Positions 10,133 through 37,900 of a DNA stretch of 64,000 bases are shown here, piece after piece; within the stretch, counting starts at the first letter, position 1; each line of letters begins with the position of its first letter. Position numbers and translations under genes: made by a program. Source of the stretch: Bolinopsis microptera (lineage: Eukaryota; Ctenophora; Tentaculata; Lobata; Bolinopsidae); assembly GCF_026151205.1 (NCBI RefSeq), contig NC_087072.1, forward strand, positions 5,380,084 to 5,444,083. Direction: 5' to 3'. Under the pieces are notes generated by a model, which saw only the letters and a list, made by a program, of their open reading frames with translations, was not told the DNA's origin and made no database searches.

Positions 10133-13100
10133 TCATGTACCACTAAAGTCTCTGGTGAAATCGTTCATAGATTGAATTGGAGGGATCAGCGGTGTCCTGA
10201 AATAAGGAAACATTAGAGAAATAAAGATGATTCATCTCTATTACTTTTGAACGTCGATTATTCGAAATTAACATAATTTCAGTAAATATAAATAAAGATT
10301 TTTCCCGGTTTCTAAAATAGAAAACCACCTGGAGTTAGACCTAATGTACGCTTCTCACTCCATTATGCTGACTCCTTTAAGTGAAAATATCTGACGGCTG
10401 ACTATCATAACACTTAGTTAAACGTTAAAATAGAAATAAGAACATACCTGGATCCCTGAACCTCGTAGTAGCCGGCCTCAACCAGACAACTCTCAATCAG
10501 GCTCTGAAGGTGCTCATATGTTAACAAAACTTCTGATCCCTCTGGTCCCTCCACTGCCAGGCTTGCCAGAGAGTTGGATCCTGAGAGTTGGGAATCTATT
10601 TACTATTTCTAAATCATTATTATGATTATGTTAATAGTACTAGAAAAGGTTTGAAATTGTGAAGCAAGAAATCAGAAATCACCCCCAAATCTACACATAC
10701 CTTTGTAATCGTTCTGAGCTTGTAAGGGCTTGCTGGCACTGAAAGTCAAATCCACGATATCTTTAGAAGCCTCCATCAGCTTTTTGATCTCATTTTTTAG
10801 ATTTACAGAGCCTATATGACGAGTAAAGAGCGCTCGCTTGTATTTCTCAATAACACGCCGTTTAGGGTTTAGATTCATCGAGGGCGGCAACTGAAAAATA
10901 TATAAAAGGGTCAAACATTATCAGATGTAACAAGTTGGGTAATGGGTAATTGCAGCGAGAAACATTGTGTCCCAGATGTTTATGCTCATGTTTTTGTATC
11001 AGACTTGTAATTTCAGCCACATTGTACATATTAGACATGGTTAAAGTTAAACGTTCCAATATTTTTCAAGTCACAAGAAATCGGGTGCTTATTCAACTGA
11101 CAACAGCCAGCACTTCAGAAAGAATTAGCAATGAAGAAAGAAAATCACACTAACCTGAGTGATAAAGATAATCTTGTGCATCTGGTTTAGAATTTGAAGG
11201 ATAGGATCGTCTATCTGTCTGACTTTGCGTTGTGATATGGATATTGTCGCGGTACTGACATTCCTGGCTCCTGTACCACTCTGCCTCCTACATCTGTTAC
11301 TCAGTGCACTGAAACGTTTGCCCATTATTTTCGTTCGTTGTTTTGGATGAAAGAATTAATTTGTCCATACCATAGCACAATGGTATTCCTCATGTTTGAA
11401 TGGATTATAATTTCGTCTGACATTGCCTTGTTCTAGCAGCCACTGTGTGTTATACACTATGATTCGACGACAACGGTATAATTACCCGGATGGGTCTGAA
11501 ACACTGCACTGGAGTTTGTGGTAATCTTGAAATCCTTATTAAATCTCTCGCTGTCACTATAAGAGCCGTCTCACGGATTTCATTACCTATTTTAGTTCAG
11601 TAATGACAACGTTGAAATATTGAACATGGCAGCCCTTATAAGAAAAGCAGATGCTATTGATGAGTTTCCAAATATGGTGTTACATCTGTTTTCTTGAAAT
11701 CAAGGATGCAGTGTTAATTATTGCAACACGTTCATTTCAGACAAGTTAAGGACTAAGGAGTTGCAGAACAATTAACATGTCTGAAATCTTACTCTAGAGA
11801 CTGTCTGAAAACAGAATATTCTTTAGATAAAAAATACATCTGACCTTGTGCAGGTCATTTATAGCTGAATATTTACCAACAGTGTGGTTGATATTACTGT
11901 CTCCATTTCATATACTGTGTAATTTCTTGAACTCTTTAGTCAAATCTTTGAGTACTTTCTTAATCTCGCACGGTTTGTACGTCATAAATTCACGCAAGGG
12001 ATGCAATGCATATGGGTGGGTTAAACGACCAACGACCATTAGACAAAATAGTAATATTAGCAGGGAAAATTTAGAGCACGTGGTCCGTGGTCGTTAATGG
12101 TGTCCAAGAAAAATCTAGCCCTAGTACAAGTGTATAGTATAAGCTTTGAGACACCCATTCGTCTTTGTCGATTGAATCGCTTACATCTTTCCTAGATTCC
12201 TGTTTGGCGCGTAGTTTATTTCTGATGACCGATTGACAAATTACAATTAATTGGTACAATTAGCCCAATCAATGAATCAACGTCCAAATTAAAATGCCCA
12301 TTCTATGCACGTGACAACTGACAAGAAGAATCAAATTGCAAAGAAACAGGATTCATTAATTGGATCTGAGAGGGGGCTTGATCTTTCTAGAATATAACGT
12401 ACTGCACTTAAAGGGCTCAGTGTCACCCTCTTAAAACTACGTATTTATTGTGAATTATCATTACGTCCTTATTTCTAGCTTAACCTTAGTCTCAGTGCAT
12501 ATGCACTATTCAGTGTGCATGATTCCCATAATTAATCTGAATCTTTTGGCGCCAAATCTTACAATTACCTGACTACCCACATACAACGGCGAACACAGCA
12601 TAGCTCCAGCTTTTGCCGACGTAATTCTCCTACATTCACATATTATGTTACAAACAATGGGTCGTTTTTAGAGGAAAACTTTGAGCATGTGTGACAGATC
12701 AACAAGTGAACAATTATAGTGGTTAACTTCTCCTACAGGACCCTCATAATTATATAATTATACCAGTTCTACTCGCTTGAACTTACACAATGCATAGTTT
12801 CGAAGAGGCATGTTTGCGATAGTTGTTATAATTTGTTTTTGTTTTGTGACTTTGAGTCGGTATTACTACTGCTACATTTATCACAAAGAACTAATCAGTC
12901 AAATACAAAGTACGAGTATTTCAAACAATAACACGGGTTATAGTGGGTTAACTGCCCACGATTAACTGATCAGCGGTAAAAGGTGCACTGGCAGTCGCAA
13001 AGGCCCTAGTAGTATAGTCCCAGCTATTGTTCTAAACAAGTTACATACTGCATACATGTAGGTGCTACAAGATTAGTACCACTAATGACAATGTTACGCG

Positions 13101-16100
13101 TCCACTCCGTCATAATTATGTACTATACAGTATACAGTTCATGTAGGCAATATTTCCCCGTCCCTTTCGCTCTGTAGCTTCTCATACAATCTCTGCGTCT
13201 CAATATTATTTTCTATGCCTTCCTTTTGAGCTTCTGACGTGTTGACCTCCTATTTGATTGGATAGAAACGCAAGTGCTGATCCATATAGATATGATTTAA
13301 TTGTGTATTGATGTAAATTGATAACTTTACCAATAGAGTGAAAATAACTGAAGGCCGCACGGTTAGCTGTGGTTACCAGAGTTAATTTATGTGAGTTCAG
13401 ATATGCTGCCATGTACCAGTTTTAGTTTCTGTAAGAATAGTATGAGAAAAAATGTTCATAGGAAAGAAAAGTTAGCCTCCAACTTAAAGTGCCATTCAGA
13501 TTCTTTTGTAATTGCGAGCTTATACCCCCAGCTTTGCTGGGGGATATTCAGTTTACCCATCTAGTGTCACCATATCATAATCAATGGTCCGATCTGACGA
13601 CTTTCCTCCAAAATTCACGTGTATATTGTACAATTAAGAGACCAGTTCATACGTGACTACGAATTAAACCAATCATTTTGAAGCAGGTGACATGCTCCAT
13701 ACGGCCGGGTGATACAATGGCTTGTAGCAAAATAGTTGAATATTAGATATATCCGTATTGTTATCTTATTATTCGTACTATTGACATATTATTATGCGGA
13801 GAAGCGCCATTGTCCATGGATTTTAGACGATCATGTCATAATTTACCAGACTAGTAATAATACCTCTCTAGTCTCCGTATTAATATACCGTGCCTCTCTT
13901 TACTGGGCACCTCGATTTACCAGGCATTTTCTTTTACCCAAACTTTTAAGCTCGTTTCGATCTTTTAAAGTTTTTGTTATCTTTAACATTTCCTAACAAC
14001 ATTTACGTGTAAAATTGAAAAACGTTCAAATATTTTAATTTATGGAATCGAACTGGTAAGCAAACAGCTTAATTTTGATTTTTTTTTATTGTTTTTAATT
14101 GTTCACTAATCACTAAAGAATCTGTCGTTCAGATTTCAACGAGAAATGATTACACATTTGAGGATCCTTCTGTCTCTGTTACTTTGCTATCCGCCAATCG
14201 TTACAACTCAATCAAGTTCCACACCAACTGTGATAGAAACAGAAGCCGCAGAAGAAACCCATCTAACAGCTGGATCAAAACGTAATCTTGATACAGATCC
14301 TAAAACTGATCCTACGATTGATCATAAGACTGATCTTGCAACTAGTAATCCTAAGTCTCGTTCTGAAACAACCGCAACATCTTCGCCAAGCAGTTCTAGT
14401 AGTATTACTCCTCCTCCAATATTTACTGAAGTGCCATGGGATGATATTAAAGGTAATTAGCATTTACAGGAGGGTTGGCACATCGAATATGTATAATCTA
14501 AGAGGAGCGAAGTTTTAAAACAGTATTTTCCCATGACCTAAATTGTCACTATACCGTGACTTGATTATATGAACGAAATTTCAGATGACACGATTTGTAA
14601 GTTCGTTCAGCATTATGGTTACATCAAAATTCAATGCACAGCTGTGGACGTAGCAACCAACAAAACGAAGACATTCTTCAAGTGCCCAAATTCTGACGAT
14701 TACTATGCGGAGGTAAAAAGAGAGTGTGACGAACAGCAATTTACTACAGCTTGTCCCAAAGATCCTAGGTTTTATCAGGTAAGAGGGGTTACCTTACGAG
14801 ACATATTTATGGTCGACATAATTCCGGTGACCTAAATGATTTGGGAACAAAAATATGGGAATTTTTACCAAAAACCGCCACATTTCGTACATTTATAACT
14901 TACTATATTGATAAATTGATAGTAAATCGATAAAGTCATAATTAAGGAAAATACGTGAAAAATTATTTGGGGAAAATAATGATGGTGACCCAAATTTTGA
15001 TAGTCCGAAAATATGGTATTTTTTTCGAAAACCACCGACTTTCGTACCATTTGAATATGTGTCGCACGGTATTTAGGAAAAAAGTTAGAGTTAGATTTAG
15101 GGCTCAATAAGGTAACAATTCGCGGGGCAAGACGACGGGGACCGTACAACATTTAAAAAAATATTATCATTTTAGGTCCTATAAAATATTATTTCAATTT
15201 TCAGGGCTGTGGGTTTGTGAAGTTAAATTGCAAAAACAAAGGAACAGGCGAGGAGGGGTTTGCCGCCATTGAGGAGATGCATTACCATCACAACTTCCTG
15301 TGTGCCCATGCGATATGTTCTTATAATAAAGGGATATTAGGAACAAATGATATCTGTAACAAAGAATGTGTGAACATTCCGAACTCTGTCTCTGAAGATA
15401 TTTGTGCAGCACAAAAAGCGAATTCATACACCTGCAAATATCCAGCCATGGGCAATATCATCGACTCTCAACAAATGTGTGATGATATCTGTAACTGTCA
15501 TGCGTGTGATGATGAGGCTATATGCAATGGTTTCACTTATGGATACTTTTGCTATGCATATAATAGTAAAACAAGTCGTAGCACCGTTCATCATCCCAAT
15601 GAACGTAATTCTCCCATAATGAGAATATGGACTTATGTTGCAGCATTTGAAATTTGTGACGGAATTCAACATTGTGAAGATGGTGAAGATGAAAGTGGCT
15701 GCGATAAGGGACCGCTCTGTGACGCACAATCAAATAGTATTGTTAGACCAATAACTAATCGTACAAGATGTGCTCCGGTGCGAGGAAACACGGAAACCCT
15801 GTATTGTGACGATTATTCTGATCAACTGAACTGCATTGATTCCACTATAGCAAATCTAACTTGCTTGAGAGGCGGCGACCTTGTTTCTGTTGCTGATAGA
15901 ATGATATGTCACAACATTTCTGGTGTCCAACTTTGTGATGACGGTTTTGAAAACATGTGTGTGAAAATTGATATCACTTGTGATGTACACAAACACCAAC
16001 TTTGCGATGAAGAAGAAGATTGTGTAAATGGAGCAGATGAGTTGCATGTCACTTGTCAAAAAATGAGCAAGTTTATGTGTGAGCGTGTTTTCGGATTGGA

Positions 16101-19100
16101 GAACAGACTGTTACATATACCTCTGAGCTGGATAAACGACGGATACAAGGATTGTGATAATGGCGAAGACGAAGATAAATACCCAATATGCGGCCTCACT
16201 CCAGCCACGAAAAGATTGAAGACTGAAGATGAAGAATGTGAAGAAGTCTTCCTCTGCGGGTTTCCGCCCTCTGATCATATTGAATTTGAAGATCTCTGTG
16301 ATAATAGAAATACTTGCAGTAATGAAAACGAACTCTGTCGCACAGCTCTGTCTTCTTCAAATATCTCCCAGAAGCTTAGCAATAGCGAAAGTAAACTGGT
16401 TGTCTCGTACTGCCTTAAAGGTCTGGAAAGTCTTGCTTATGTGGCCGGAAATTGTTCAGAGATGGAATTTACATATCAGAACTATGAAATCCTTGGCAGG
16501 ACCGAACTGATCTTGAATGTTCCAGAAACTGTGTTTGAGTGCAACTATGTATATGGTGAGATGTATGTCTATCTTGCCTGCATTGGTCAGTGTGCAGATT
16601 CCTTCTGTCCCCTCAAAAATCTTCTTAGAAACGACTCCTGTCCCGGGCAGTACCCCTCAAGGATTTACACCCTCGCGGGTAACGACTCTCTCTCCTTCCT
16701 TCTGCCGTATGGTAACAACAATTACCACAACAATATTTTTCCTTGCGAAAATGGTAGATGTATTCCTTACGAAAAAGTTTGTAATCTGGCTGACGATTGT
16801 GGGGATTCTTCAGATGAATCAAACTGTACTAACCATTTTGAGTGCAAAATAAACATGGAGTATATTCCCCAATCTAGTATTTGCGATGGAAAACCAGATT
16901 GCCTCGACTTGTCTGATGAGTGTAATGACAGATGCCATGTAAGGATCATAGAGAACGTGGCCCTTGAGGGTTTAGCCTGGATTTTAGGCTCATTGGCGAC
17001 ACTTTTTAACTCAGTCGCTTTCCTTCGCGGTATGTATAATTTAAGAAGTGTCACTCCAGGGACAAATCTTTTCAAGATGAAAATTCTCATCCTTCTCATA
17101 GCGTCGGGTGATTTGTTACTTGGAGTATATCTCCTAGCGATATCTATCTATCATCGTGTATACCACCATAGTTATTGTTCTAAACGATTTGAATGGTTAA
17201 CCAGCACATCGTGTGCTGTTATGGGAATTGTTAGTACCATGGGGTCTCTATTATCTCTCTTTTCGATGACAGTACTCAGTGTTACTCGATCATTAAAAAT
17301 GACGAATTTGTCCGTCGTAGATTTAAGATCTTTCAAATCAAGCATTCAGATACTTTTGATTGGAATTACAATTGTGATCTCGTCGTGTTTGATGACAGCT
17401 GCGCCATTGTTTAAACCTTTTGAGGACTTTTTTGTCAATGGAATCTACTATCCTGGCAGCTCATTATTTGTTGGATCGGTTACAAAATCTAAACATTTAG
17501 AAATTTTCGGGGGATATTATGGAAGACTGAAAAACAAAGATCTCTCGTGGAAAAACATTGACAAATTGGTGGTGAGTATGTTTAGTGAAGAGTATGGAGG
17601 AATTACCAGGAACCAGGTTCATTTCTACGGAAACGCAGGAGTATGCCTCTTCAAATACTTTGTAACACCAGATGATCCGCAACGGATTTATGTGTGGTTT
17701 ATTCTTATTCTGAACATCATGTGTTTTACATTGATCACCATATCTTACATCATCATTCATATCATTTCAACTCAGTCCACTGGTCAGGTACGCAACAACA
17801 ATACATCAAGTAGAAACACTAAACTCCAAAGGAAGATTGCACTCATCATCGGGACAAACTTCTGTTGCTGGATTCCATTCATTGTCATGTGTCTCCTCCA
17901 CTATTTGGAAATGACGGATGCTAGTCCTTATTATTCAATCTTCTCGATCGTTATCCTTCCCATAAACTCTGTCATAAACCCACTGCTATACGACGATACA
18001 ATCAGTGGACTGGTCTCCAAGATGCACACGGCTTTAACCGGACAATTACGATCTATCTTCCCGTTTTCAGAAGTCACTGCTGTACAAGAGGCAAGCGCAA
18101 TTCAAGAATCTTCCCATGTGATCAGGAGCTCAAGAAGGGCAAGAGTTCATGATCAAATTCCTCTTCAAGAAATGTCAGTTCTCGACAAACAGGTTATAAA
18201 AACTGGCGAGCAGACTGAGGAAGCACTCTGAATTTATCCTATTTGAACATCTTAGGAGGAAGTCATGACAAAAACAAGGAGCAGTCAAATGAGTGATTGA
18301 GTGATAGTATATTTGAGCCGTGCTGTCAGTACACCTCGACCAATTAAAATTCTGTATAATTTTCTTATATTTGTGATCATTCAATTTGAAAATCTATTAA
18401 GATATATTTTTTAAATTATCAGAATTTATATTGGCCTTATAATTGGTTTCTTGTGCCTCCGTGCAAGCTAGTCAAATCGCAAAAATACAGCAAAGAAAGA
18501 GTTTCCTCAGTACTCCAGCTTGCAGGGGTACAACTAGTTCCAGGTGTACTGAGCCTTAGCGTAAGCAAGTTTAACAGCTTATTTAGACGAAACATTTCCT
18601 ATGCTTTATGCAAAATAGTCCTTTAAAGTTCATGGATACAATAATTATTAGATCTGTGTGCTGATTCGTACCATTGTTATATTGGAAGTGAATATATTAC
18701 AAAATCACCTTTAGTTCATGTTTGGTTCAGCCTATATTTAGCAGTGTAAACGTAGCTTATTTAATGCTATTTACACAGGTTCACGTTGTTACAAGATACC
18801 CATCCCTCGTTTCATACAAAGTTGATGCAAAATGAGTAGTGAGTATTTAATAGGTGCCGGCGCGAACAATCTGTCAGCAGAAGAGTTAGCGATGTTAATG
18901 TCTAGGACACTTTCAGGTGCAGATGTATTTTCAAAGCCATTACTTTTGCATATATTAATGGGATAATATGATACGTCATACGTGCACTGTGATTCGTCAC
19001 ATCTCTCAGAGGAAGTGCCCCATCAAGTGAACGAGTGAAGAGGTACTGTACATCATTATGCTACAGAGAGTCAATTTAAGACAGTGTTAAGGTACAAAAG

Positions 19101-19999
19101 TGAGGGAATGAGAACGAACTGGCGGTTGAATACTCGCAGACGCCCGGAGCATTGCTTTAAAGTTTAGGCTAACTATTAATTATGCAGTACTTTTCGAATT
19201 TAACCACATAAGACTCACCTATCAGCGCAGTTTCCAGAGTGGATGTGACTTGGTCTAGCACGGTTGGAGGCAACAGAGGGAGCAGAAGGAACTTGTCTGC
19301 CGGAAACACAGGTGCATCGCCGCCTGCCAGTTCCACTCCGGAATTTGGATCGGTGGGAGGGTCGGTTAGGGGAACTGTCTGTGTCATCAACCGAACTCTC
19401 CTCCCCGGTAGAGGACACGCCCATCGAGGATCTGAGAATAAGGAAATCACTTTCAGGATTATCTTTACCAGTAATTTCATATTGATAAATAATCCACAGG
19501 TTTTCATTATATTCAATGAAGGATCATCGCTTTTTTGCCATCCTTTCCTCCTTACTATCGAAAATGTTCGGAATAACAAGGGAACGGCGCAGTGAAAATG
19601 ATGGGCAATTACCCGGAACACTTGAGACATGAGTCATCTTGTTCTTGAGATGAGTGGTTGGTAGCGAGGAACAGTCGCTGGTAATTCTGTAGGTTCCTAT
19701 TGCTCTCGTGGTAGTGCCTGGAAATTAATTAGTCATAGATCAATGAAACATAAAATAACTCCAATCAATTTTTGAAATATTTGTGAAACGTGGTAAGAGA
19801 TCAGAGATCAAAGGCATCTGTTCATTTTAATAAAATATAAGGTACAAACTTCTGGACACGTTTCTTCTCCCTCTGCAGTTTCCTCTGAAGAGTTGCTTCT
19901 CTAGTCCGCACCTCGTCCATGTGCAACATGATGATCTCTGCTATACTGGACCCTACCCCCACTATGTCGGGTCTCAGGTCTGTGTCTGGGGTCATGCAT
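10133..19999 (-). CDS. NEK10: NEK10 module 3: kinase C-lobe end, coiled coil and C-terminal block
   Basis: Exons: 19850-19999 ([13 protein letters not shown], then a basic coiled coil [16 protein letters not shown]), 19622-19717 ([13 protein letters not shown]), 19219-19431, 11155-11308 (or from 11270), 10701-10890, 10448-10580, 10133-10196. The last four give [40 protein letters not shown] and [14 protein letters not shown], which match the conserved tail of NEK10. Without the upstream context these four exons look like a separate small gene starting at 11325, which I reject. Exon 19219-19431 is open in two frames: one keeps phase with its neighbours through acceptor 11308, while the other looks more like NEK10 and fits acceptor 11270. 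Confidence 0.85.
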
Positions 20000-22900
20000 C
20001 TGCAGGGTGGGTTGAGGGTTCAACTGGGTGTATTTTGGAGAGAGGATGGACAGTGGACACCATGTCCAGAATACAGAAAAATAAGATATTGTTTGAGTTA
20101 ACTTTAGTGTTTAGTTGAGTTAACTTACTGTTGAACCGTGGAGATGATCTTAGAAGAAAAGTATTCTACTGGTAAGGGGGCGTATATCGACTCAACTATC
20201 TGAGGAAGAGGCGTATTAAATATAATAATAATAATATAGAGTTGCACTAAACAAATTCGATAACAAGGTAAATAAACTTTAAAATGGTTAGTGAAGCGAT
20301 CGTATTACTAATTACATGATTCTATTAATGCCAATTTACCACCCAATAAGAAATAAATCACATAAAACAAATGAATAAGTAAAATGTTAAGAAGTGGACT
20401 AACATTTTTAGCAAGAGCGAGGGTTGACATTCCGTCCCGGTAGAAGGGGTGAGTAAGTGTGCACATCTGATACAGCAGACACCCTATAGCCCACACATCT
20501 GCCTTGTTGCTGTACGGCTCGTTCTTCACTAGTTCCGGGCAGCTGTAGAGGATTGTTCCCACTACTGACTGCATTAGTCCCTGCTTCTGACGGGACAAAC
20601 CAAAGTCCGCTGAGATGTAGGTTCATTATCAAGGGGGTTTTGATGCAGATTACAGGTAACAGAAACTTTGAAGCTTGAAAAAATCGTTAAAATAGCGCCT
20701 GATGATGTATAAAGAGCGCGATTTTCATTATTTATTTTCTATTGTCATAAGGTAAGCGAATCCTGATGACAAAGTAAGCTTTTCAAAGTGAACATGAGTT
20801 GTTTGAATGTGTACTCACTGAGAGTGACCTTGTCGTAGTCTCCCAACATGATGTTGTTAGGAGTGAGATCTCTGTGTACAATTCCTTTATCACAGTGCAG
20901 GTATCTCAATGCTAACACCATCTGAAGAAAAGATAAACACTTGGTCAGGTAGGCTGTAAGTTGTTTTTAGCATCATACTTTTGTGGACCTAACATGCTGT
21001 TTTTTTTTAAACAGAACTATCGTTTACATTCTATAAGTTGATTTAAACATTATTTTAAGTAAACACAAACCTGAACAAATATTTTCCAGATTCTCTCCTC
21101 GCTGAAAGACAGGCCCTTTTCACGGAGCGAAGAGAAATGTTCGCTGAGAGGAGCTCCGTCTATATGCTGCATCACTATGTACAACCTGCTCTGTTCCTTG
21201 AACGTTTTGTAGTACCTGGTAGTGATAACAGTGGTCACGTGACTGAACGTTTTGTAGTACCTGGTAGTGATTACATTGGTCACGTGACTGAACGTTTTGT
21301 AGTGCCTGGTAGTGATTACATTGGTCACGTGACTGAACGTTTTGTAGTACCTGGTAGTGATAACAGTGGTCACGTGACTGAATATTTTGTAGTACCTGTT
21401 AGTGATAACAGTGGTCACGTGACTGAATGTTTTGTAGTACCTGGTAGTGATAACAGTGGTCACGTGACTGAACGTTTTGTAGTACCTGGTAGTGATAACA
21501 GTGGTCACGTGACTGAACGTTTTGTAGTACCTGGTAGTGATAACAGTGGTCACGTGACTGAATGTTTTGTAGTACCTGGTAGTGATAACAGTGGTCACGT
21601 GACTGAACGTTTTGTAGTACCTGGTAGTGATAACAGTGGTCACGTGACTGAACGTTTTGTAGTACCTGGTAGTGATAACAGTGGTCACGTGACTGAATGT
21701 TTTGTAGTACCTGGTAGTGATAACATTGGTCACGTGACTGAACGTTTAGTAGTACCTGGTAGTGATAACAGTGGTCACGTGACTGAATATTTTGTAGTAC
21801 CTGTTAGTGATAACAGTGGTCACGTGACTGAATATTTTGTAGTACCTGTTAGTGATAACAGTGGTTACGTGACTGAATGTTTAGTAGTACCTGGTAGTGA
21901 TAACATTGGTCACGTGACTGAATGTTTTGTAGTACCTGGTAGTGATAACATTGGTTACGTGACTGAACGTTTAGTAGTACCTGGTAGTGATAACAGTGGT
22001 CACGTGACTGAATATTTTGTAGTACCTGTTAGTTATAACAGTGGTCACGTGACTGAATATTTTGTAGTACCTGTTAGTGATAACAGTGGTCACGTGACTG
22101 AATATTTTGTAGTACCTGGTAGTGATAACAGTGGTCACGTGACTGAATGTTTTGTAGTACCTGGTAGTGATAACATTGGTCACGTGACTGAATGTTTTGT
22201 AGTACCTGGTAGTGATAACATTGGTTACGTGACTGAACGTTTAGTAGTACCTGGTAGTGATAACAGTGGTTACGTGACTGAATGTTTAGTAGTACCTGGT
22301 AGTGATAACATTGGTCACGTGACTGAATGTTTTGTAGTACCTGGTAGTGATAACATTGGTTACGTGACTGAACGTTTAGTAGTACCTGGTAGTGATAACA
22401 GTGGTCACGTGACTGAATATTTTGTAGTACCTGTTAGTTATAACAGTGGTCACGTGACTGAATATTTTGTAGTACCTGTTAGTGATAACAGTGGTTACGT
22501 GACTGAACGTTTTGTAGTACCTGGTAGTGATAACATTGGTCACGTGACTGAACGTTTAGTAGTACATGGTAGTGATAACAGTGGTCACGTGACTGAATAT
22601 TTTGTAGTACCTGGTACTGATAACAGTGGTCACGTGACTGAACGTTTTGTAGTACCTGGTAGTGATAACAGTGGTCACGTGACTGAATGTTTTGTAGTAC
22701 CTGGTAGTGATAACATTGGTCACGTGACTGAACGTTTAGTAGTACCTGGTAGTGATAACAGTGGTCACGTGACTGAATATTTTGTAGTACCTGTTAGTGA
22801 TAACAGTGGTCACGTGACTGAATGTTTTGTAGTACCTGGTAGTGATAACAGTGGTCACGTGACTGAACGTTTTGTAGTACCTGGTAGTGATAACAGTGGT

Positions 22901-25900
22901 CACGTGACTGAATATTTTGTAGTACCTGGTAGTGATAACAGTGGTCACGTGACTGAATGTTTTGTAGTACCTGGTAGTGATAACAGTGGTCACGTGACTG
23001 AATGTTTTGTAGTACCTGGTAGTGATAACAGTGGTTACGTGACTGAATGTTTTGTAGTACCTGGTAGTGATAACAGTGGTCACGTGACTGAATGTTTAGT
23101 AGTACCTGGTAGTGATAACATTGGTCACGTGACTGAATGTTTAGTAGTACCTGGTAGTGATAACAGTGGTCACGTGACTGAATGTTTTGTAGTACCTGGT
23201 AGTGATAACAGTGGTCACGTGACTGAATGTTTTGTAGTACCTGGTAGTGATAACAGTGGTCACGTGACTGAACGTTTTGTAGTGCCTGGTAGTGATAACA
23301 GTGGTCACGTGACTGAATGTTTTGTAGTGCCTGGTAGTGATAACATTGGTCACGTGACTGAATGTTTTGTAGTACCTGGTAGTGATAACAGTGGTCACGT
23401 GACTGAAATAGGGTTTGTTGTAGAATGTAGAGCTATAGTCTCTGATGACAACACAGATCTCTTGTTAAGACCTAAGATGAATTTATCTTGAAACTTTGTA
23501 TCTCCAACTCGCCAAGCTCTGATAGTCATATTTGTATGGTTTCCACATAACTTTCACGATGGTAGGGGGGGTACCAATGGCATAAAATGGAGACAAATGG
23601 CATAAAAATCGTCAAATGGCATAGAAATTTCATGGCATAAATGGAAATTTAGCTTGGCCAATTCTCCATTTATGCCAATTTATGCCATTAATTTAGGTCT
23701 TCATATTTGACCTTTAGGATGACTTTAGATTCGCAAATACTATTAGTACTTGAATAAGAGACATGTTTCATGCTTTATAACGCTTGGAATGATCGTTAAA
23801 GTCAAAGATTCATATGACAAATAACTAAATAAAGAAAATAGAAATGTATTATATCAAATATATACCAAACATTTCACTATTCAAGAATAGCAAATTGTGA
23901 GATGTTCAAAATGTACAGAATACAAACATTGACAACACAACGATTTTGAATGTCATCAAGGAACAATGCATCTGATGTATTTGTCTTCGACGAGTAGCCA
24001 TACATTAGGAGATCCATTGATTAGGCTATGTTCCTGGCAGTAGTACTTCATCGGGCATGACTTATAAGAAATAAATCTAACCACTCCTGTTGCAAAGTTC
24101 TGCTGAGATTTGAAGACTTTAAGAGTTTCTGTACTGCCAGCTTTCAAAATTGTTGAACATCCGCATTCAGGTTGATTGTATATGCGAACATCAGAAGACA
24201 CTCCAAACGCGTCCCCCTTGAATCTTGAAAGACGAGATTTTGTTGATAAAGTGCTTCTTCCTCCATTGAGCGTGGCCGTGAGTGTCTCAAAAGACCGGAA
24301 GGATAGTGTTCCATATTTATCTGTTGATATCGTTTCTCCATCATCACAATCATCAACTACAGGTTCTACCTCATAAGCTAAGTCGTCCTCATCCTCGAGG
24401 CATCCAGATTCATCATCTACAGCTTCCCAAGAAAGTTCTTGGCCATGGACGATTGGCTTCCCACTCCGTTCTTCAGGATCTGCGACTGCGGCGAACACAG
24501 GGAAATTGTTTCTTTTCCCTTCTCGAATGCAGTCCCTCGATGCCCTGTCCAGCGTTTTTGCCAACTTGCCTAGGCTTATCATACCACCAGTCCATTTCAC
24601 TCGTTCTGCTTTCTGGCCTGTAGATTTAACCTTTTTGAGGTGAACTGTAGGATGCAAAACTGTACTTCCACGTGCATGTGCAATAGCAGATGTGTCTTCA
24701 TGTAATGATAAAGCACTGTACACATTCTTTCTCTCCATTCCATGGGCCATAGTTATCGCATCCATATTTCTTGAGCGACCAGATGAAAAAGAAACCCGAA
24801 TAAATGCAAACAGCTGCTCATTCTGATCACTTCCAAGGTAATAAGTGACGATTTCAGCATTAGGGAATTGCTTCTTCAGCAGAGTTAAATACAAAACAAG
24901 ACCGTCACAAGTACATATAAGATCAAGGTACGTCTGATTCGTTATGCTGACAGCTGAGTAAGTATTCTCTTTCCAAGTAACGAAAAATGTTTTTTCTCAA
25001 ACAGTTCCATTTTTATTATACTTTATAGTTTAGAGTCTAATTTGGCATGATATCAGATCATGTGATATTACATGGCCCCATGGAGAGCATTGCCAGAGCA
25101 ATTGGCCAGAGAGCTCCATAGAAGTAAGGGGCCTACTCTAGCCAACAGCTCTAATACATTTCCTTCCTCAACTTCATTTTCTTCATCTAACTGCTGCTGC
25201 TGCTCAGCAACTACTTGACAGCTGGCACAGTGACAATTGTCTGCGTAGTGTATCTGTTAGCCTCAATTTTGCCTCAAGGAGGGAAGGTAGCCTCAATCCA
25301 ACCTCACATAAGTTTCGATAAAGTCTCAATTTAACCTTCAGGCTACAATTACAAGTTTTATAGTGGGTCTATAACATGTTTCCGTACATTAAAGTTAAAA
25401 CTTAAAATGCGGTCGAATCATTTATTAGCCTCATTTTGGCCTCCTACAAGAAGACTCTGCGATTTCTGAAATGTTGAGCTTGAAGAGGATGAATAAATTT
25501 TTATTGTTGACACATTAGATAGTCACAATACCGAATATGCTCGAAAATATATACAAAAGTATACTTGTTAGCCTCATTTCACCCTCTCACAAGGTGGTTA
25601 GCCTCAATTTCACCTCGAAAATTTGAAGCTATAATCCGACGGAATTTCATGTGCAACATAGATATCAAGTAACTTGTGAGTTGTTAACCTGTTTCCGTAC
25701 ATTAAAGTTAAAATGCGGTCGAATTATTTATTAGCCTCATTTTGGCCTCCTACAAGTAGACTCGGCGATTTCTGAAATGTTGAGTTTGAAGAGGATGAAT
25801 CAATCTTTATTGTTGACGTATTAGATAGTCACAATACCGAACCAACTCGAAAATATACACAAAAGTATACTTGTTAGCCTCATTTCACCCTCTCAAAAGG

Positions 25901-28900
25901 TGGTTAGCCTCATTTTCAACTCGAATATTTGAAGCTTAAATACCGATTGAATATAATCCCAAGGAATTTCATGTGCAACATGGATATCAAGTAACGTGTG
26001 AGCTGTTAACCTGTTTCCGTACATTAAAGTTAAAATGCGGTCGAATTATTTATTAGCCTCATTTTGGCCTCCTACAAGTAGACTCGGCGATTTCTGAAAT
26101 GTTGAGTTTGAAGAGGATGAATCAATCTTTATTGTTGACATATTAGATAGTCACAATACCGAACCAACTCGAAAATATACACAAAAGTATACTTGTTGGC
26201 CTCATTTCACCCTCTCAAAAGGTGGTTAGCCTCATTTTCACCTCGAATATTTAAAGCTTAGATCTCGATCAAGTATAATCACCATGGATTATACTTGCAA
26301 CTTGGATATCATGGACGTAACATGAGAAAGTTCTTTTTTGAAAGTGGTGAGGCTAATTTGTTAGCCTCAATTGTCCCTCGCAGTTAAATCACTCCTACTG
26401 AGTCTAGTGAGTGAGCTAGGAGGTCGCTGAACATCTCATTTTAAAGCCGTATCGATTTTCTATACGCATACCAAAAATCAAATGCGTAACTAAAACAGAA
26501 ATGAAATTACAGAAGTTTTAAATTTTTTGTCAAAAAACGAACTTTTAGGAGTGTTTCTAATGACCAGGGTCAGTACAACAAATAGAGATAAAGGTGGACA
26601 GTACTAGTGGGGTGCAGACTATTCGTTATTAAATTCTCAGTTCAAAGTTTTAAAATTTCATATTTCGAATGGCATAAAATGGAGACAAATGGCATAAAAA
26701 TCGTCAAATGGCATAGAAATTTCATGGCATAAATGGAAATTTTGCTTGGCCAATTCTCCATTATGCCATTTATGCCATTGGTACCCCCCCCCCCCCCCCC
26801 CCCCCCCCCCCCGATGGTAGTGGTAGTGGTAGGAGTACTGCTGCCTGTTTATTACTGTATTCGAGCATATACATTGTATGTGATCTCAATATGTATGTGA
26901 TCATCATTCATAATGCATGTTGAGATTGTTATTCATTGTGGAAAGTAACTGTTATGTTGATAAGAATACGATATTAAAATGTCATTCAAAAGATTTCTAT
27001 GATTTCTACTGATCTACGGAACTATTTGTTTTCTGTGCTTCCTTATCGGAACATTAGGACACCTAAGCTTCCTCTACTTCAAACGAAGGAAAATATCTGT
27101 GTTATCTACATGATGATAACAGCTGATGGTATTTTAATAAGCATTGCAGTGCTTCCTTCAGGAATTTTGCTATAATCTAAAAGAAAAATGGCCATTTGTT
27201 ATGATTGCTAAGATTAAAAGAATTACAACGTCGTATCATTGGATTCCTGAACAGGAGAATGATGTAATATAATGGAAACAGCCGTGAGATTTTCTCTTGC
27301 GTCCTGGACAAGACTGGACAAGACTGGACAAGTTCAAACAAGTCAGTAACTGGTAACCCAAACACCGGGGTTTCAAATAAAATCCAGTTTTTCTTTCTTG
27401 TTCTTATGTTGAGTATTGGGATATGCCATTTAACTTACTGCTTATCTTTATGTTAAAAGCACATTTTCTAGGGAATTCATCCATGACATAATGTTCACAC
27501 ATTAATTCAAGTTATATCATCGAAATGGTGATTATGTCATACCAACAGAGGTAACATGTAGGTTCGACATGAACCTAAGGAGCAATGGATTATAAGCACT
27601 CCTCGCTAATTATTCAATCACTTTTTGAAAATATGAACCGGCCTTAAGTAAAAGTAGTAATATTTTGTTATTAGTGCGATTTATCCATGACGTAATGTTC
27701 ACAATGTGATGGTTATGTCACACTAGTAAGTCCTGTAAAATGAACATGTGCTTGTACGGTAATACGCCTGAAACTCCTAACCTACTCATTACTCAAGGTA
27801 TTATACCTGATATTCAAAATCTCTTCTGCTCCTGTTTCGAAATGATCTAAGGGTTGTTAGTCATTCTTCTTTGCGTCAGAACTTTCACTTTCTACTTTCA
27901 CTTTCTACTATTTGCTTTATCATGTTTTCCGGAAGGAAAATACGCCATTCAAACGGCAGACGATTTTGATTCCTTTCAATTCTTGCAGACAGAGAATATT
28001 TCGTTACAGCAATGTTTTTGGCTTTATAGAATTTGGCAGTTTATATTAATCACTAGTTTGACGAGCGATGATTTTGTCTCTGCTTGTGATTTGTCACATT
28101 TTAGAATAGCTTGGATTATAGTTTTGATATAGGAAATTGGCCTTCACTAAACAGTGCAAACTCGAGTCAGAGGCAACATGTAGAATGTAGGTGCAGTAAT
28201 ATTTTTTAAATAGTGCGATTCTTCATTTTGCACCTGCCCAAAACGTTTTATGTGCGTTAAATTTTAAGACAAAAAACACTGCAACTAAGCTGAACAATTC
28301 GCCAAATTTTAAGCCTTCAAGTTCTCTTGGACTATCCAACAGCGTAGTATATAAGGTTATTATCTGTCAATGAGATTCCTGATAATTCAAGATGTATAAA
28401 TTTATAGAATTAACCTCATTGTACATAGAAAGTTTTAAAGTTATATGGGCAGGATGACTGGGGCTAGTTGATGTGTATCGTGTATATAACCTAAAGTGAC
28501 TAAAGCGACTCAATTCCAAATTTCAATCTATTGAGGGATTGTGATCAACTTGATGTCATATTTACAGTGAATATTTTTATTAACAGTACAACTACGTGCA
28601 GACTGTAGAGGTTACAAAAAACCACTTTTATATTTACTTCTTCTGTTCGATTTAACTACACAGTGAGCGATGCCATTTGGTCAGCGATACACCTCATATA
28701 ATAACGGACAATAGGGCGTGAAATGTGAATTATAGTTTCTACTTGTTTTAAGAATAAGTGATCTTAGCAAGGTATTCGACACAAAAATAGCGAATTTCTC
28801 GCAACCAACTAGTCAAATATAATCGCTTTAGGTCACGACTATTCACAGCCTAACATCGTGCTTCACGACTTTCTTGATGAAATATAAACTCTTATATACT

Positions 28901-31900
28901 TATCCTGATAAGAATTCTGGCAAGTGCTCCAACCTAGCTACCATCCTACAGTCTAATATTTGTTAAATTACGTAGTCCTGATAAAAATGTGATAAAATTC
29001 CATTTTCTTTGTACTGTCACAAAATAATGTTCGTTTCTATTCGTAGTCCTTGGAATGGACACTGATAGAATCACCACCAAAGCTAAAGTAGAGTACCGGA
29101 TCAAGAAAATCGAAATAGAAGGTCTGTTTCTTATATAATAGATAATTATTGAATATCTATAATATCAAATATCGATTGAATTTTTTAAGAAATCAGTAAC
29201 TTACTCAGCCAACTACAACTCAGGAAAGTGAATTTGTTGTTTTCAGGTAAGGAAGTTATAGACACTATCATTATAACGTACGATGATGATAGTATATGGT
29301 CTTACGGTTTAGGAGGGAGAAAATCCCACCAGAAGACAATAATCTTCTCAGGAACTGAATACTTGGTAGGTGTACTGTTGTACTTGTAAGATTAGGAATA
29401 AGTGTCGATTAAAAAACTAATTAAAATTTAAACTTCTAATTCTTAGTCTTACTTTTTAAATTTATAAACTGACGGTATCACCGAATCGTTTTGTCTTGTC
29501 AGGTACGAGTGACCCACGAAACACTGGTAAACAGAAGATGGGCAGGAGCGGCACTGGAGCTGGAGACAAACCGAGGCAGAGTGTTCTCCTTTGAGCCCGT
29601 ATGTTCGAGTACACCCAAACACAAGCGCACCACTATAACAGCTGAACCTGGGATGGAGATACTATCTTTACAGATACGGTCAGGTGCTCTGGTGGGGTAT
29701 GAGCAGCAGCCGTGTAGAGAGGAGAGTGTAGCTGTTGAAGAGTGGTATAGTGTGCTTTATCAGGGAACCAAGGAAGATGGGGTGGAGGTGAAGGAGTTCT
29801 CAGAGAAGCAGGAGGCGGTGAGGTGGTGGCAGGGGATCAGGGACAAGTGTAGACAGAAATCAGGGCGTGGAGCCTTGTTTCTTGATACCAAGAGGAACAC
29901 GATACTGAATAAGACAGGATCTGAGGTTATAGGGGTCACGAAATCCTCTCCGAACCTCCACGTGGTGTGGCCTGGTTGGCACTAACGGGTGGTGTGCTCT
30001 CTTGTTGAGTACAAAGGTTGGGCCTTGCCAACTCAAAGTTCCCATAGGAATCAGGAAGTCAACACTAACAGCTACCAAGCACCAGGAAATTTCTCTTTCA
30101 GATATCAGGTTACAAGATAGTACACACACAAATGACGATACATTAGACACAGATACCTAGCTCTAAGAGCTACTAAATCACCAGGAAATTCTCTTTCAGC
30201 TTTCAGGTCCCATCTAAGTCACCCACCACAGAGCTAGGGATTCCAATTCGCTCATCCTGACTACAAGGACACACTGATAATGAGTAGTCCTGGCACTTCT
30301 CCCTCCAGTAACCACTTTTCAGGTCTTTTCAGTTAAGACAGCTAATGCGTAAGGGCTGACACACGCTAGACACAGGCTCGTGATAAGACAGAATTAGGGA
30401 TTTAAACTCTGACTACGAGGACACACTGATAGCGAGAATTCCTGGCACTTCTTCCTCCAGTAACCACTTTTCAGGGGACCGGGTTAGCTTTGCCACACTC
30501 TTCATTGAAGTGTGACTGGACGCTCTACAATCATCTAGTAGCAGCAGAGTTTGACTGACACCCTTACTGGTTCTATTCAGTTTCTACAGCGGAAGATCTC
30601 AACACTCGAAAACAGTTCATCTCGGACATCCTGCAGAGCTGCTTTTTCACAGCTCAGCCTGCCCCATTACACGGGGAACCCTTAGATCTACAGTACCCTG
30701 GTGGCGAGCATAGCTCACTAAAGCATAGTGGACCTCTTTAGTTCTGAGACGCAAAGCTATCCGGATCAGGAATAAACATCAATGCAATGCTTAGGGGATG
30801 CAAATAGAACATACAATGTTTATCGAATGCATTACTCAATCTTTTGATTCATTTTTTTAGCTCGACGTTACATGGTAACATTTCAGGACTGACATTCCTC
30901 CTTCAGGTTAATTGAGGAAATCATACCCGCTATTTGCGTTATACATGGCAAGTATCTGGACTTATGATAACTTAGGATCTCCATCAATCATAAATTCCTC
31001 TCAGATTCCCAGGCTGCATTTATAGCGCTTAACAGCACCAGTTTTAACTCCAGGTTCGTTCTGAACATCTCAGACCAACTCACTAGGTATTCACATCGAG
31101 TAGGACTTCGTTCCAGGACATTAAGGAGTATACGGTAAAGAACTAGCGGAAGAATTCGCAAGGGACGATCAATCCAACAACATCCCCATAGGACCAGAAC
31201 CCTTCCTCCCAAATAGGCCACACTCAGTGACAAAGGAACATTCCACTTATGATGTTCCTCCACAAATTAAATACAGGAACTTTTATTTTTCTGGAACTCA
31301 CATCAGATGGCTAACATGGTCCCTTTCAGAATAGGTCACAGCCCACTAGTTTATTTTCAGAACGTGGCAAACAACGTCAACTTCAAGACGCAAGATTGCG
31401 AACACTTTTCAGGAGAAGCAGCAACATCCCAGCACCTCCTCTACAAGTGCATCCAGATCATGACGTTCAGAATGAGGATAATTGGTAAACTCTACCTTAA
31501 CAACAGTAAACTACATCATATCTTCAAATTTGTGGAACAGTCGACAAGACTGGATAGGGAAAACCCTTTTGGGTAACCTCCTTGGATTCTTCACCAGGAA
31601 CTTTCGCTAAATCCCATACTAGGAACTCAACCTAGGCCCATCTCCGCATAGAGACATATCTCCCAGGCTTTGACCTTGCTCGGAAGTCCCTTGTCTACCC
31701 GCAGAAGTACTACAACGGAAGTGGGTTTGCTCTGAGACAGGTAGTGACAGCTTCAAGACTCCAGGGGTCTGTTGCATTGATATTTATTATTTTATGATTT
31801 CGTATATACTTTGGGAGTCCTGGCGTGCAGCTAGCAGGAGTTGCATTCTGTGGGCACGGTGAGAAGGCCTCCATCTTAACGTAAGAGGCCAGAAACCGTT

Positions 31901-34900
31901 GACCAGAACAGAGAGAGAGAGACAGGATCTGAGAAAATCACAGCATATCTGATGTCTGAGGCTGAGAGGAAGGGAATGTACGTGACTATGAAGGAGAATG
32001 CTACTAAGCTATCCGTATCACTATCAGGTATGTTCTCTGGTATTTATAAAGCTCTCAGCACTAGAGGACAAGCGATCAGAATGCTCATTTTAATATCACT
32101 GCTCCTGTGCGGAAGCATTGTGGACTTGGAGATCTTGAGTTTGACCGGCCAGCTTTTATCCGTCATCTCTGACAACACTACTGCTGACAACCAGAGCTTC
32201 TACGGGAATGTTCTCTGTCAAACTGTGCTGGAGTGCAGTACCAGGTTTGAGCACATCAGGGCAATGCTTATAGGCTTCGTTTTTATGGTTCTACTGGAGC
32301 AGATCATGGTCCTTGGGAAGTATTATTTAGAAAATCTAAGCTTGCAAGGCATAACGGGTAATTTGAGGACCCAGTCTTTGGAGAAAGCGCTGTCCCTGCA
32401 CAAGGGATATCACGACTCACACACCACCGCTGAGGTTGCCTCTGTAATGGGAAGAGCAGATTCCATGACCTATTTAGTTACATTCACTATCCCTTCTGCA
32501 GTGTCACAAACATTTGGTATACTTGCTTCTGGATTCTATTTAGTGAAAGCTGATATTATGATCGGGACAACGGTTATTATATTGACAGTGCTTTATAATA
32601 TTGTATATCTTATGCCAGCCAGGAGAAAATCTATGAGAATAATGCGGGCTCAAGATAAACTGAGCTGTGGAGCAGAAGAGCACAAAGATGAGGCTCTGTC
32701 CATGATGTCTACCGTAAAAAACTTCTCCCATGAAGCACTCCATGTTGAAGAGCAGCGAGTAGCAGAAAAATGCTCGGCTTCTAATGATCTGACTATTGTG
32801 CTTTACAGAATTCTGGATACATTATTTATGCAGAGCTTCAAATATTTCCTTCTAGCATTCTTGATGGCTTACGAATTAACAGCATCGGAATCCGTATTCG
32901 GACCAGGAGAATTCATGACATTTTACTTAGTGTTTAGTAAATTCCAGGAGCAGTTCAGTTGGTTTGACTATCAAATAAAAGATATTCAGAAAGGCTTGAC
33001 TGCAGTGGAGAGCTATGTGGAGTTCATGTCGACACCATGCGAGGTAGTCTCCGGAAGCGAGACAGTAGCTTCTCTGGAGGAGGACATACAGTTTGAGGAT
33101 GTTCACTTTGGGTATCCCGCCAGGATAGGGGAGAAAGTCTTATCGGGATTAGACCTTAAAATACAACGCAAGAAGATGACCGCTCTCGTAGGAGACTCTG
33201 GTGCTGGAAAGTCGACAATAGCCAAGCTTCTGATGAGACTCTACGACCCCCAGCAAGGTAGGATCACAATCGGTGGCAAGGACATCAGAGACTACGATTT
33301 AACAGGGTTACATGGAAAGATGACCATCGTAAGTCAGGACCCCACTCTTATGAACTCCACTATAGTGGAGAATATTTCTTACGGAGCAGCATCCCCAGAT
33401 GAGATCACCATGACGCGAGTTAAAAAGGCTGCTGAATTGGCTAACTGTGACTTTATCAACAAGTTCCGCAGCGGGTTAGACACGTTTGCGGGTTCGCAGG
33501 GTTTACAGCTTTCGGGAGGACAAAAGCAAAGGGTAGCGATAGCCAGGGCGGCAATGAGAGATCCCGAGATTCTGATATTGGACGAGGCGACCTCTGCTCT
33601 GGACGCTCAAAACGAGAAGGAAGTCCAGGAGGCACTGGATAAGCTGATGAAGGGCAAGACAACCATAGTGATAGCTCACAGACTGAGTACTATAAGACAG
33701 GCAGATGAGATTATCTGTCTGAAGGACGGGGAGGTTAAGGAGAGAGGGACACACGATGAGCTGATGGGGTTGGGAGAGTACTATGCTAACCTGGTCTCCA
33801 AACAACTGGTCGAGGATAATTGCAAGAAAATGGAGGAAAACGCTTGATCTGGAAATGAAGTGAAGCGTCTTCTTCAGCAAGTATCTCAGGAATTAGTCAG
33901 GCAAGAGAGCCAGTCTAAAAATAATCAACTTACGAATGAGAAAGACTTATTCAGTGAGAAATGTTCACAAGTTGGAGATAACGGGCCTTTGTTTGGAGAT
34001 GCTGAGATAGATGAGAATAACTTTGGCCCATCCAAGGAATGACCTATTCAAGAGTAGCGCCAATATCTTTTTATGTCAGAGATTATTTACGTCAGATTAA
34101 AGTGCTGTTTTTTCGGTTTTAAAAAACTTAGTTTTATTTCATCGAGAAAGTATTGCCAAGAACTCAAAACCAGACAGATATTAACACTGGCATCAAACGA
34201 TCGATCCTTTAGTAGCCGGGATGATTTCTTTTTGATTTTTTGTCAAAAACGGTACTTGAATAATATGAATATGTTATGCATTTGTGTGTAAGTAGAATGT
34301 AAGTAGAAGAATAACAGAGATATTTGAGAAACAATTTGATTCAATTGTATCGTATTCCATTCTATTCTATTATGTTAATTACAATAATATTTTGTATATT
34401 ATTCTATTTTGTTTTCAAAAAAATGCTATTCTATTCTAATTCATCTGAAATAAAATTAACTTCGTATGTTGAGATTACCTAACAATGTTTGGATGTCGGA
34501 GCTGCTCCTTTATAATATTAGATTCGTTCAGTATGTCTCCAATACATCTCGTCCTCTCTTTTGTTGTCGCGCCAAACCCCGGATGTTGAAGTGAAATCTA
34601 AAAATATTAAAACGTATGTATTAGTATAGTGACTACTGTTTAGTTGACGCTTTTATTGTTACAATCTCAGGTTCATCGACAATATCTTTAAAGAAAATAT
34701 TACAAATAATCGATGGCGCAGTTATTAACACAATTATTTGCTCACCTCTTTCATTGCCAGAGTGGTGGCTTCATCATGGGAACCAGATGTCTTTTTTACC
34801 TGGTGAGGAATTGTATTTTAATAGGTTTAATTCAAACAATTTGAACAGGTATTCAAACAATTCAAACAATTTTTAATGTCAGAGACGCTTTGAACTGATG

Positions 34901-37900
34901 GTTTTGTCCTGGCAGATAAAAGTGCATTATGGAGTAAAATATAGCAATAAACATGATAATAAAATAGAAAAAGTACCTTGTAGACAGTTCCAAAAGCTCC
35001 AGATCCAAGGTGCTCCAAGACAGCATAAGATCCAACGTAGAACATTGGGGCTCTGTGTTGGTTAGTGTTGTGTATCCGACACTTTATCTTGTTCCTTACC
35101 TCCTCCTGGGAGGGGCGCTCAGGTTTAGGTGACAGTGACAGTGACAGTTACGGTGACGGTGACAGTGACAGTGACAGCGACAGTGACAGTGACAGTGACA
35201 GTGACAGTGACAGTGACAGTGACAGTGACAGTGACAGTGACAGTGACAGTGACAGTGACAGTGACAGTGACAGTGACAGTGACAGTGACAGTGACAGTGA
35301 CAGTGACAGGTTTCTACAACATTGGGGCTCTTTGTTGGTTGTTGATGTGTAACTGTATACTTTTTCATGTTCCTTACATCATCCTTCAAAAAAAAGTCAG
35401 CTAAAAGTTGAAAGTTACTGACAAAACCAGCAATATGCTGACTTACTGTGATATTAATATATAATCTGCATATTATTTGTTGTGTGGTGGAATGTAGAGT
35501 AAGACGGAAGCAACAGATAATACACCATACATTCTCCACACCACACTCCGTATCCAACAGAAAATCGTGTGATGCAACAAAATGTTTATCTGATTTCATT
35601 TGGCCGTCTCATGTTACACACATTGTACCAGATTTGCAATAAATCGTGCTATTTTGTTGAGAATGTTCAGTTTGCTCTTACTGCTTCTCCTACCCCTGGC
35701 CACCCCTCAAAACATCCTCATAATCCTCCTGGACGATGTGGACGACCTTGCTCCGACCCGGGAAAAAGGCTTTCCCAACATAACGGCCCACTTCACTAAG
35801 AACGGTGTGATGTACAACAACGCGTTTGTAACGACCCCAATCTGTTGTCCATCACGAGGTAGCATCTACACAGGCACCTACCAACACAACCACCGGACAC
35901 TGGATAATACCGTCACTAACGGGTGTGACGGTCCCAACTGGGACAAGAACATTGCTCCGAACAGTCTGGGGAAGAGGCTCCAGGACCTGGGGTACAGGAC
36001 GGGCATGTACGGGAAATACAGTAACAACTACAGAGGAGACAAGGTTCCTGTGGGCTGGGATGACTGGTTGGGACTGGTTGGGAACAGTCAGTATTACAAC
36101 TACACTCTAAACAGGAACGGAGTGAATGAGGAACACGGGCTCGACTACAAGAAGGATTATCTGCCAAGTCTCATACTTGATGCAGGAATTGAGTTTATGC
36201 AGGACGACAAGTCTAAGAAACCGTGGTGCGCGTTTCTGAGTTTCCCAACAGCACACGAGTCGTTTGATGCTGCTCCACAGCATCAGAAACTGTTTAAAGC
36301 GAGCAAACCTCCGAACCTTAACTATCCTTCTTTTAACAAGACCGGTGATCCAGGTAAGTCATTTGTGCTATATATTTATATCAATCTCGTCCTGTTACTG
36401 AAATAGCAATCTGACGGATCAATTTTATGTTTCCAAAGCCCCTCTCCACTGTTTCTGTAGAATCAGATAAAGAAATTCTAATTTCATACCAGATCAGTAT
36501 ATTGTTCTCCTCTAAATAGTAAATAACTAATATTGGTTCAGGTAAACACTGGTACACAAGCAGCAGACCAGCCCTCAACAACGTGTCAGCTAAGTACAAC
36601 GAGCAAGGCTGGATTCGCAGACTACAGTCTCTCCAGTCAATAGACGAGGGTTTCGTGAGGATCCTCAAGAAAATCGATCCTCAAAACACCACCATCATCT
36701 TCACTTCAGATAATGGTTTCTACTTTGGTGAGTGGGGCATGATCCTGGACAAGAGGCAGCCATACGAGGTGACTGTCAGGGTTCCCATGTACGCTTCCGG
36801 TCCTCTCTTCCCCAAAGGAAGCACTCAGGATACAGTGGTGCTCAACATTGATGTAGCTCCCACTGCTATTGACGTGGCTAAAAAGTCTGGAGCGGGAAAA
36901 CCTAAACCTGGTGTCAGTGACGAGAACTATGGACTCCAATTTGACGGAACGTCTATGTTATCGCTTCTTGAAGCACCCAAAGCTCGCAACTCTTTCCTGA
37001 TTGAGTACCACGGGATGGGGAATGGCATTGACAGCAATGACAGCTGTGCGCACATTAACATGAGATGCTGGTACAAGGACAACAAGGTCTGGTACACAGA
37101 ACCAAAGTTTGATATCCCCGACGGGGAGAAGTTCTGTTTCTGCGTTGACAGCAGGAACAACACCTTCACGTGCGAGAGACGGGTTAACAACAACAATCCG
37201 GGCATTTTCACCAACTTCCTCTACTGTTCCTTCTCGTCAGGGTTTAACGAGTACTACAATCTACACAAGGATCCCTTTCAGATGAAGAACATGTGGGGAA
37301 CACTTGGGGAGGATCAGAAGTGGGAGTTTAAACGTAGGATCGGTAGGATTAGGGAGTGCAGAGGGTTTGAGGAATGCAATCAGCTGGACAACTCTGGGTT
37401 TGATTCTGACAAACCGTTCAGGGACAATTTTCGATAGGTTTCATGAAGGCGATTTGCCAGAAACAATCTAATGTTCATAATTTGTTTGTTTTGTAATTTT
37501 AATTAAAGGGTATTTTGTAAATTATTATTATTGTAACTGACCTCTGAGTTGTTTATGTAGTGTATCATGTGTTTATAAGCGTCTATGTCTGTGATGTAAT
37601 GGCCAACGTCGATAAACATCTCAAACAACTCCGTGGGGAAGAGCCTGAAATTAAAAACTATATGATAAACCCTTATATAAAAACACAAAACTCTACAACA
37701 GACCCTATCATAAACATCAGCGAAATGTTTATCTCTGGCTTATCCGAAGTTTATCTGTCCATTTTCCAATATGTTAGACAATGAATCGTTTAGACTTAGA
37801 ATAGGTCTTTTTGCATGCAAAAGGCCTCGTACACAGTCAAGAAATGCACTTATACATATCAACACGTTTATACCTAACAAAATTTACACATTTAAGTCTC

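Follow-up and report, generated by a model that had tools for sequence, protein, structure and literature searches.

A minisatellite spanning a 3' splice site of NEK10 in the ctenophore Bolinopsis microptera, and its apparent recurrence in kinesin genes

How is a 3' splice site chosen when it is the last of 49 near-identical copies of itself? The question is raised by the NEK10 gene of Bolinopsis microptera, a lobate ctenophore, in a stretch of 64,000 nucleotides of contig NC_087072.1 (positions 5,380,084 to 5,444,083; below called the window, in whose numbering coordinates are given unless another sequence is named). Exon borders were set by mapping the 1064-residue protein P0001 (Nek10-like, Bolinopsis microptera) to the window, with GT-AG introns and an unbroken frame required, which gave 27 coding exons on the minus strand (10136..51855) and a single frame-keeping GT-AG solution for each of the 26 introns. 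Intron 16 of 26 (21216..34478, minus strand, 13,263 nt) has a tandem array as its 3' end. The upstream exon (34479..34597, minus strand) encodes ISLQHPGF...HPNIVR and ends in phase 2 at the donor TAG|GTAATC, and the downstream exon of 145 nt (21071..21215, minus strand) encodes YYKTFKEQ...KIFVQ. An earlier note on this DNA had named the gene NEK10 and proposed a phase 2 junction joining 34479 to 21215, both of which the mapping confirmed.

The array runs on the minus strand from 23403 to 21199 as 49 units of 45 bp and ends within the start of the NEK10 exon. The unit consists of GTCACGTGACCACTGTTATCACTACCAG, the 28 nt of intron end, followed by GTACTACAAAACGTTCA, the 17 nt of exon start, so that the first 17 nt of the 145-nt exon are the exonic part of the last unit. 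Tandem Repeats Finder (TRF) reported the array at 21199-23407 with a period of 45, 49.1 copies, 95% matches and a score of 3886. Cutting in 45-bp steps back from the exon yielded 49 units matching the last one at 41-45 of 45 positions, and the 45 bp preceding unit 1 match it at 13 positions only. The two counts and the anatomy of the unit bear out the description in the earlier note of a minisatellite of about 49 copies at 21200..23406, the repeat of which derives from the gene's own 3' splice site and the adjoining start of the exon. That every repeat has the identical junction did not hold: the exact string CACTACCAGGTACTAC occurs in 36 of the 49 units, 13 deviating from it, and the shorter CAG|GTACTAC in 45, with AG present in 48 and AG|GT intact in 45. 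The tandem repeat is not due to chance, because its score of 3886 compares with 792 for the runner-up among the 49 arrays (period at least 10, at least 2.8 copies) in 264 kb around the window. Arrays of this class are sparse around NEK10, and the NEK10 array outscores the other 48; outside the filter fall a 322-bp repeat of 2.1 copies (score 1201) and a (TG)n repeat (score 933). On the plus strand, opposite NEK10, a stop-free frame of 810 codons crosses the whole array (21059-23491) and is probably a mere consequence of the 45-bp period.

Protein sequences point to the copy that is used. P0001 joins HPNIVR directly to YYKTF without an insert, and P0002, an unnamed homologue with 80% identity over the searched region, likewise reads HPNIVR-YYKAFKED without one. 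These are the proteins expected if the last copy alone is used, as the earlier note had predicted. It had further argued that choice of an earlier copy would add 15-codon units, many of them with an in-frame TAA. The frame is indeed kept, but TAA is found in 10 of the 49 units (units 6, 7, 15, 19, 23, 25, 26, 32, 34 and 37), and the frame is open in units 38-48, so that 11 of the 48 earlier copies, if used, would insert 15-165 residues in frame.

The last acceptor copy (21216..21243, minus strand, ...CACTACCAG), which gives the annotated protein, scores 6.3 bits against a matrix built from the other 25 acceptors of NEK10, the ninth lowest value of 26. Among the 45 CAG|GTACTA sites, 10 outscore the true copy (6.9 bits) and 24 others tie with it. 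The best AG in 23650-21170 lies at the 5' edge of the array, TATTTCAG, an acceptor-like site of 7.6 bits (23403..23422, minus strand, TACAACAAACCCTATTTCAG). The acceptor sequence itself bears no mark of the true site; since 34 of the array's 96 other AGs equal or exceed its score, the selector must lie outside the acceptor. What sets the last copy apart is the exon body and the exon's own donor, 145 nt away, and exon definition, in which the acceptor is paired with that donor, is the most likely means of selection. RNA structure was dropped as a candidate signal: the last four units together with the exon do fold better than shuffled versions (z -2.9, none of 100 as low), but a repeated palindrome makes such folding expected.

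Both edges of the array carry the word TTCA (CCCTATTTCA|GTCACG and AACGTTCA|AGGAAC). The one at the 5' edge (23404..23407, minus strand) is common to exon bases 14-17 (21199-21202), a microhomology of 4 bp. One TTCA word lies 29-32 nt ahead of the exon and the other at exon bases 14-17, and TTCA at both edges is what would be expected of a duplication between two such words. Within the array, exact blocks of four units recur, units 22-25 being equal to 31-34 (a shift of nine units) and units 14-17 to 36-39 (a shift of 22 units), as is commonly seen after unequal exchange or slippage. Variation between units is highest at the CpG at positions 40-41, where the C differs from the exon copy in 11 of 49 units and the G in 31 of 49, and the CpG within CACGTG has changed in none of the 49. 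Elsewhere, CACGTGA also occurs in other short tandem repeats of the window (42413-42507 and 46024-46076) and of contig C1 (5562441-5562587 and 5581017-5581161), and TCACGTGA is found five times in the window outside the NEK10 array vs 0.8 times expected from base composition.

Taken together, we give a probability of about 0.75 to the following account. A 45-bp segment spanning the 3' splice site and flanked by TTCA would have been tandemly duplicated through slippage or microhomology-mediated repair, and would have reached 49 copies through repeat turnover, in part by duplication of blocks inside the array. Being intronic, the array would be removed together with the intron, the spliceosome joining 34479 to the last copy, whose acceptor would be paired across the 145-nt exon with the exon's donor; exon definition and signals in the exon body would select this copy. 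A dedicated function would not be necessary, as arrays may arise along Bolinopsis introns and be tolerated at exon borders.

Arrays of this kind have a precedent in amphioxus, where minisatellite-like tandem duplications of exon-intron borders were named mirages (PMC3087553, PMC3902484). The mirage genes are Adh3, the globins BflGb6 and BflGb9 and troponin C, with similar imperfect repeats in PGBD5, and regular mRNA as well as length instability were reported for them (PMC3087553, PMC3902484). The NEK10 array has a genuine border in its unit, retains AG/GT signals and shows internal turnover, and it is a mirage by structural definition. In BflGb6, as in NEK10, an intron's 3' end is repeated along with the beginning of the following exon, and many units of the mirages carry AG/GT signals. 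The ctenophore array belongs to another phylum and has 49 copies, whereas two BflGb6 haplotypes have 6 and 3; its unit is 45 bp as compared to 150-160 bp in BflGb6 and 10-72 bp in Adh3; and it is known from one assembly, whereas mRNA and length instability were examined for the amphioxus mirages. Human IFI6 (6-16, G1P3) also harbors an exon-border minisatellite with repeated splice sites, but there the donor is repeated, not the acceptor, and downstream units are used as donors (PMC4526556). Intron gain from tandemly duplicated AGGT segments, including 24-bp repeats in fission yeast, resembles the NEK10 case in that tandem AG|GT copies are able to define introns of n units; such duplications create a new intron in an exon, whereas the NEK10 array enlarges an existing one (PMC4974935).

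Similar arrays apparently recur in other genes of the Bolinopsis microptera genome. For the kinesin motor family, which gave 109 matches, 18 regions (71,218 bp) holding 81 matches were taken and 28 matches were left out. Copies matching at 30 or more of 36 bases within 1500 bp were found for 12 of the 162 match edges tested, and by eye the junction lies inside the repeat unit at seven edges across the 18 regions. The longest arrays are in locus L042, where the donor CTTG|GTAAGT lies in a 33-bp unit (52 copies by TRF, 50 exact copies of CTTGGTAAGT) and the acceptor TTACTTGTAG|GTA in a 26-bp unit (112 copies by TRF, 111 exact copies of TTACTTGTAGGTA); exact-string counts include the true copy. 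The L045 acceptor AATCCCAG|GTATTC has a 49-bp unit with 6.7 copies to the end of the analysed stretch (7 exact), and the L040 acceptor TTTTCAG|GAGGTAAC a 21-bp unit with 24 copies by TRF and 33 exact copies in the locus, in which this unit forms a second array farther upstream. The remaining three are donors, in L041 (53 bp, 2 copies), L040 (38 bp, 2 copies) and L031 (21 bp, 4.7 copies, degenerate). As for the other edges, the L034 donor only adjoins its array and was not scored as spanning, and neither were four edges that are near arrays but have the junction outside the unit (L034 at 2015 and 2345, L042 at 7113 and 7227). Across the two L042 borders, Mnemiopsis leidyi protein P0122 reads QNCYD-VHELLLK and TSLSELG-NVMMALQ, without repeat units. 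Similar to the NEK10 acceptor, the L042 donor is not marked by its score, 49 of 133 other GTs in its array scoring at least as high. The introns of L034 and L042 are also rich in unrelated minisatellites (units of 13, 21, 41, 26, 33, 30 and 18 bp), several of which adjoin exon borders without containing them. A survey of kinases (PF00069) was set aside, the matches lying mostly in single long open frames. Three further repeats near the window (100 bp, 33 bp and 36 bp) include no exon border evident by eye, no homology search having been made for them.

Whether arrays favour exon borders was examined in the kinesin genes and in NEK10, the kinesin border statistics being small numbers from one sampled gene family with predicted junctions. 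Random placement along array-free intron predicts 4.1 border-crossing arrays, and of the 32 arrays found in introns that separate motor exons, 5 extend into an exon by more than 2 nt (L045, with its upstream exon unmatched, and L031, whose best TRF row starts inside the intron, are excluded from these five). With 5 observed and 4.1 expected, neither border-seeking by arrays nor weeding-out of border arrays is shown. The simplest interpretation is that introns acquire short tandem duplications along their length and tolerate those in which a splice site is included. In NEK10, borders are not favoured by arrays and may even be avoided there.

Several points weigh against the proposed account and its extension to other genes. 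A strict automatic test, in which 24 bases with the predicted junction at their centre had to recur within 400 bp at 22 or more matching positions, was passed by 5 of 129 predicted kinesin junctions (2 of 57 acceptors and 3 of 72 donors), compared with the seven found by eye; the L031 donor and the L042 acceptor fail it, few of their exon bases being part of the repeat. Control rates in this test were 18.4% for 1500 intron-interior and 0.3% for 1500 exon-interior positions. In NEK10, one of 52 junctions lies in an array, and 17 of 150 random positions in the gene span have a near copy (at least 35 of 40 bases matching within 3 kb). The kinesin junctions are themselves predictions from a matrix and open frames. 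Use of the last NEK10 copy rests on protein models and conservation, and it is by inference that exon definition is put forward as the selector.

Another explanation builds on the observation of the earlier note that each copy sets AG next to GTA, the form of a ratchet site; this applies to 45 of the 49 units rather than to each. Splicing to an early copy would rebuild a 5' splice site, TAG|GTACTA, from which errors would be re-spliced forward to the last copy, and any AG|GT might equally be spliced to another, excising n x 45 nt in frame. Such seamless, in-frame correction would be an attractive safeguard. As a donor, CAG|GTACTA has 5.9 bits in the unspliced state. In human cells, exon starts at which a donor is regenerated are known to undergo re-splicing (PMC6224609), and in fission yeast AGGT minisatellites can serve as introns (PMC4974935). 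Of the three kinesin acceptor arrays two read AG|GTA and the third AG|GAG|GTA; three of four acceptor arrays, NEK10 included, thus start with GTA, a mere hint given the high baseline, GT being the first two exon bases at 24 of the 83 acceptors surveyed and GTA the first three at 14 of 83, these arrays included. Unlike the exon starts of recursive splicing, which the array resembles in form (PMC6224609), the rebuilt site joined to 34479 is weak, its 4.0 bits being below 21 of the 26 NEK10 donors. Moreover, the true exon begins in the same way, which would expose it to the same re-splicing, and a ratchet cannot account for the donor arrays. We regard this explanation as unlikely. A role as functional alternative acceptors, giving NEK10 forms that are truncated or have 15-165 extra residues after HPNIVR and letting copy number tune output, is slightly less probable again. 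It is favoured by the frame-keeping 45-bp unit, the open units 38-48 and the used splice donors supplied by the human IFI6 minisatellite (PMC4526556). Yet 10 of 49 units hold an in-frame stop, the insertion point falls between the conserved kinase-domain motifs HPNIVR and YYKTF, and among the 120 of 1654 protein matches listed there is one B. microptera NEK10 cluster, whose listed sequence is insert-free.

The splice junction could also be a passenger of a DNA-level element, the palindrome GTCACGTGAC, which we take to be an E-box-type sequence, making the array an enhancer or a protein sponge. The palindrome occurs in 42 of 49 units and nowhere else in the window, and its CpG is unchanged throughout whereas the unit's other CpG has changed in many units. 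The latter argument is weakened by the shared ancestry of the units, and the kinesin arrays have unrelated units; we regard the putative DNA-level role as very improbable. A chromatin-loop anchor of the ctenophore CTEP1/CTEP2 type, the motif of which is GC-rich with two CpGs (PMC12221973), was dropped as a candidate since the 45-bp unit is not GC-rich. We give the lowest odds to an artefact of assembly or an erroneous copy number. Near-identical units in tandem are prone to misassembly, and for one of the amphioxus mirages a draft assembly was faulty (PMC3087553), but the NEK10 array lies in a contig of 26.2 Mb, its units carry ordered variants with block structure, and a 265-bp stretch over the exon occurs once in the genome. 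The exact copy number may nevertheless be off. The functional roles are putative, judged from sequence, and the anatomy was well described in the earlier note.

The array at the NEK10 border is real and belongs to a known class, the mirages, which apparently recur in this genome. The published examples of border-crossing minisatellites, in the parts of the literature covered, are mainly from amphioxus, and no earlier report of splice-site minisatellites in ctenophores was found in the literature searched, coverage of which was partial; the apparent frequency in a ctenophore thus seems to be the new element. The NEK10 array and the seven kinesin ones found by eye in 18 regions suggest a common product of this ctenophore genome. 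Tentatively, and at less than even odds, ctenophore genes may carry splice-site minisatellites of up to about 110 copies at several percent of their borders, spliced next to the exon body. If true, these would be natural experiments in strict exon definition, perhaps aided by AG|GT re-splicing, and an ongoing source of growth, sliding and gain of introns, in a lineage regarded as the sister group of the other animals. The time at which exon definition came to dominate in animals is debated, and one study places a shift in its favour in bilaterian ancestors (PMC6142364). Each such locus pits one true splice site against many near-equal copies and provides a natural test of site choice, the outcomes of which are separable by RNA: use of the site nearest the exon body (exon definition), of the site nearest across the intron, or re-splicing.

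The NEK10 exon starting at 35105 was considered as a second junction array and rejected, as it has one old half-exon copy only. This older copy covers the exon's first half, lies on the minus strand at 35315-35385 and is identical to the exon in 58 of 71 columns, a (TCACTG)n repeat at 35129-35309 lying between the copies. NEK10 introns further harbor, on the plus strand opposite the gene, long frames at 31880-33847, 35594-37437, 37714-41241 and 46096-47250 that by eye, no family search having been made, resemble an ABC transporter, a sulfatase, a LINE-type reverse transcriptase and a homeodomain protein, respectively. Just upstream of NEK10, a single-exon frame on the minus strand (52287-53726) is divergent-tubulin-like, again by eye and with no family search. 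A (TG)n tract of 477 bp is found at 1950-2426.

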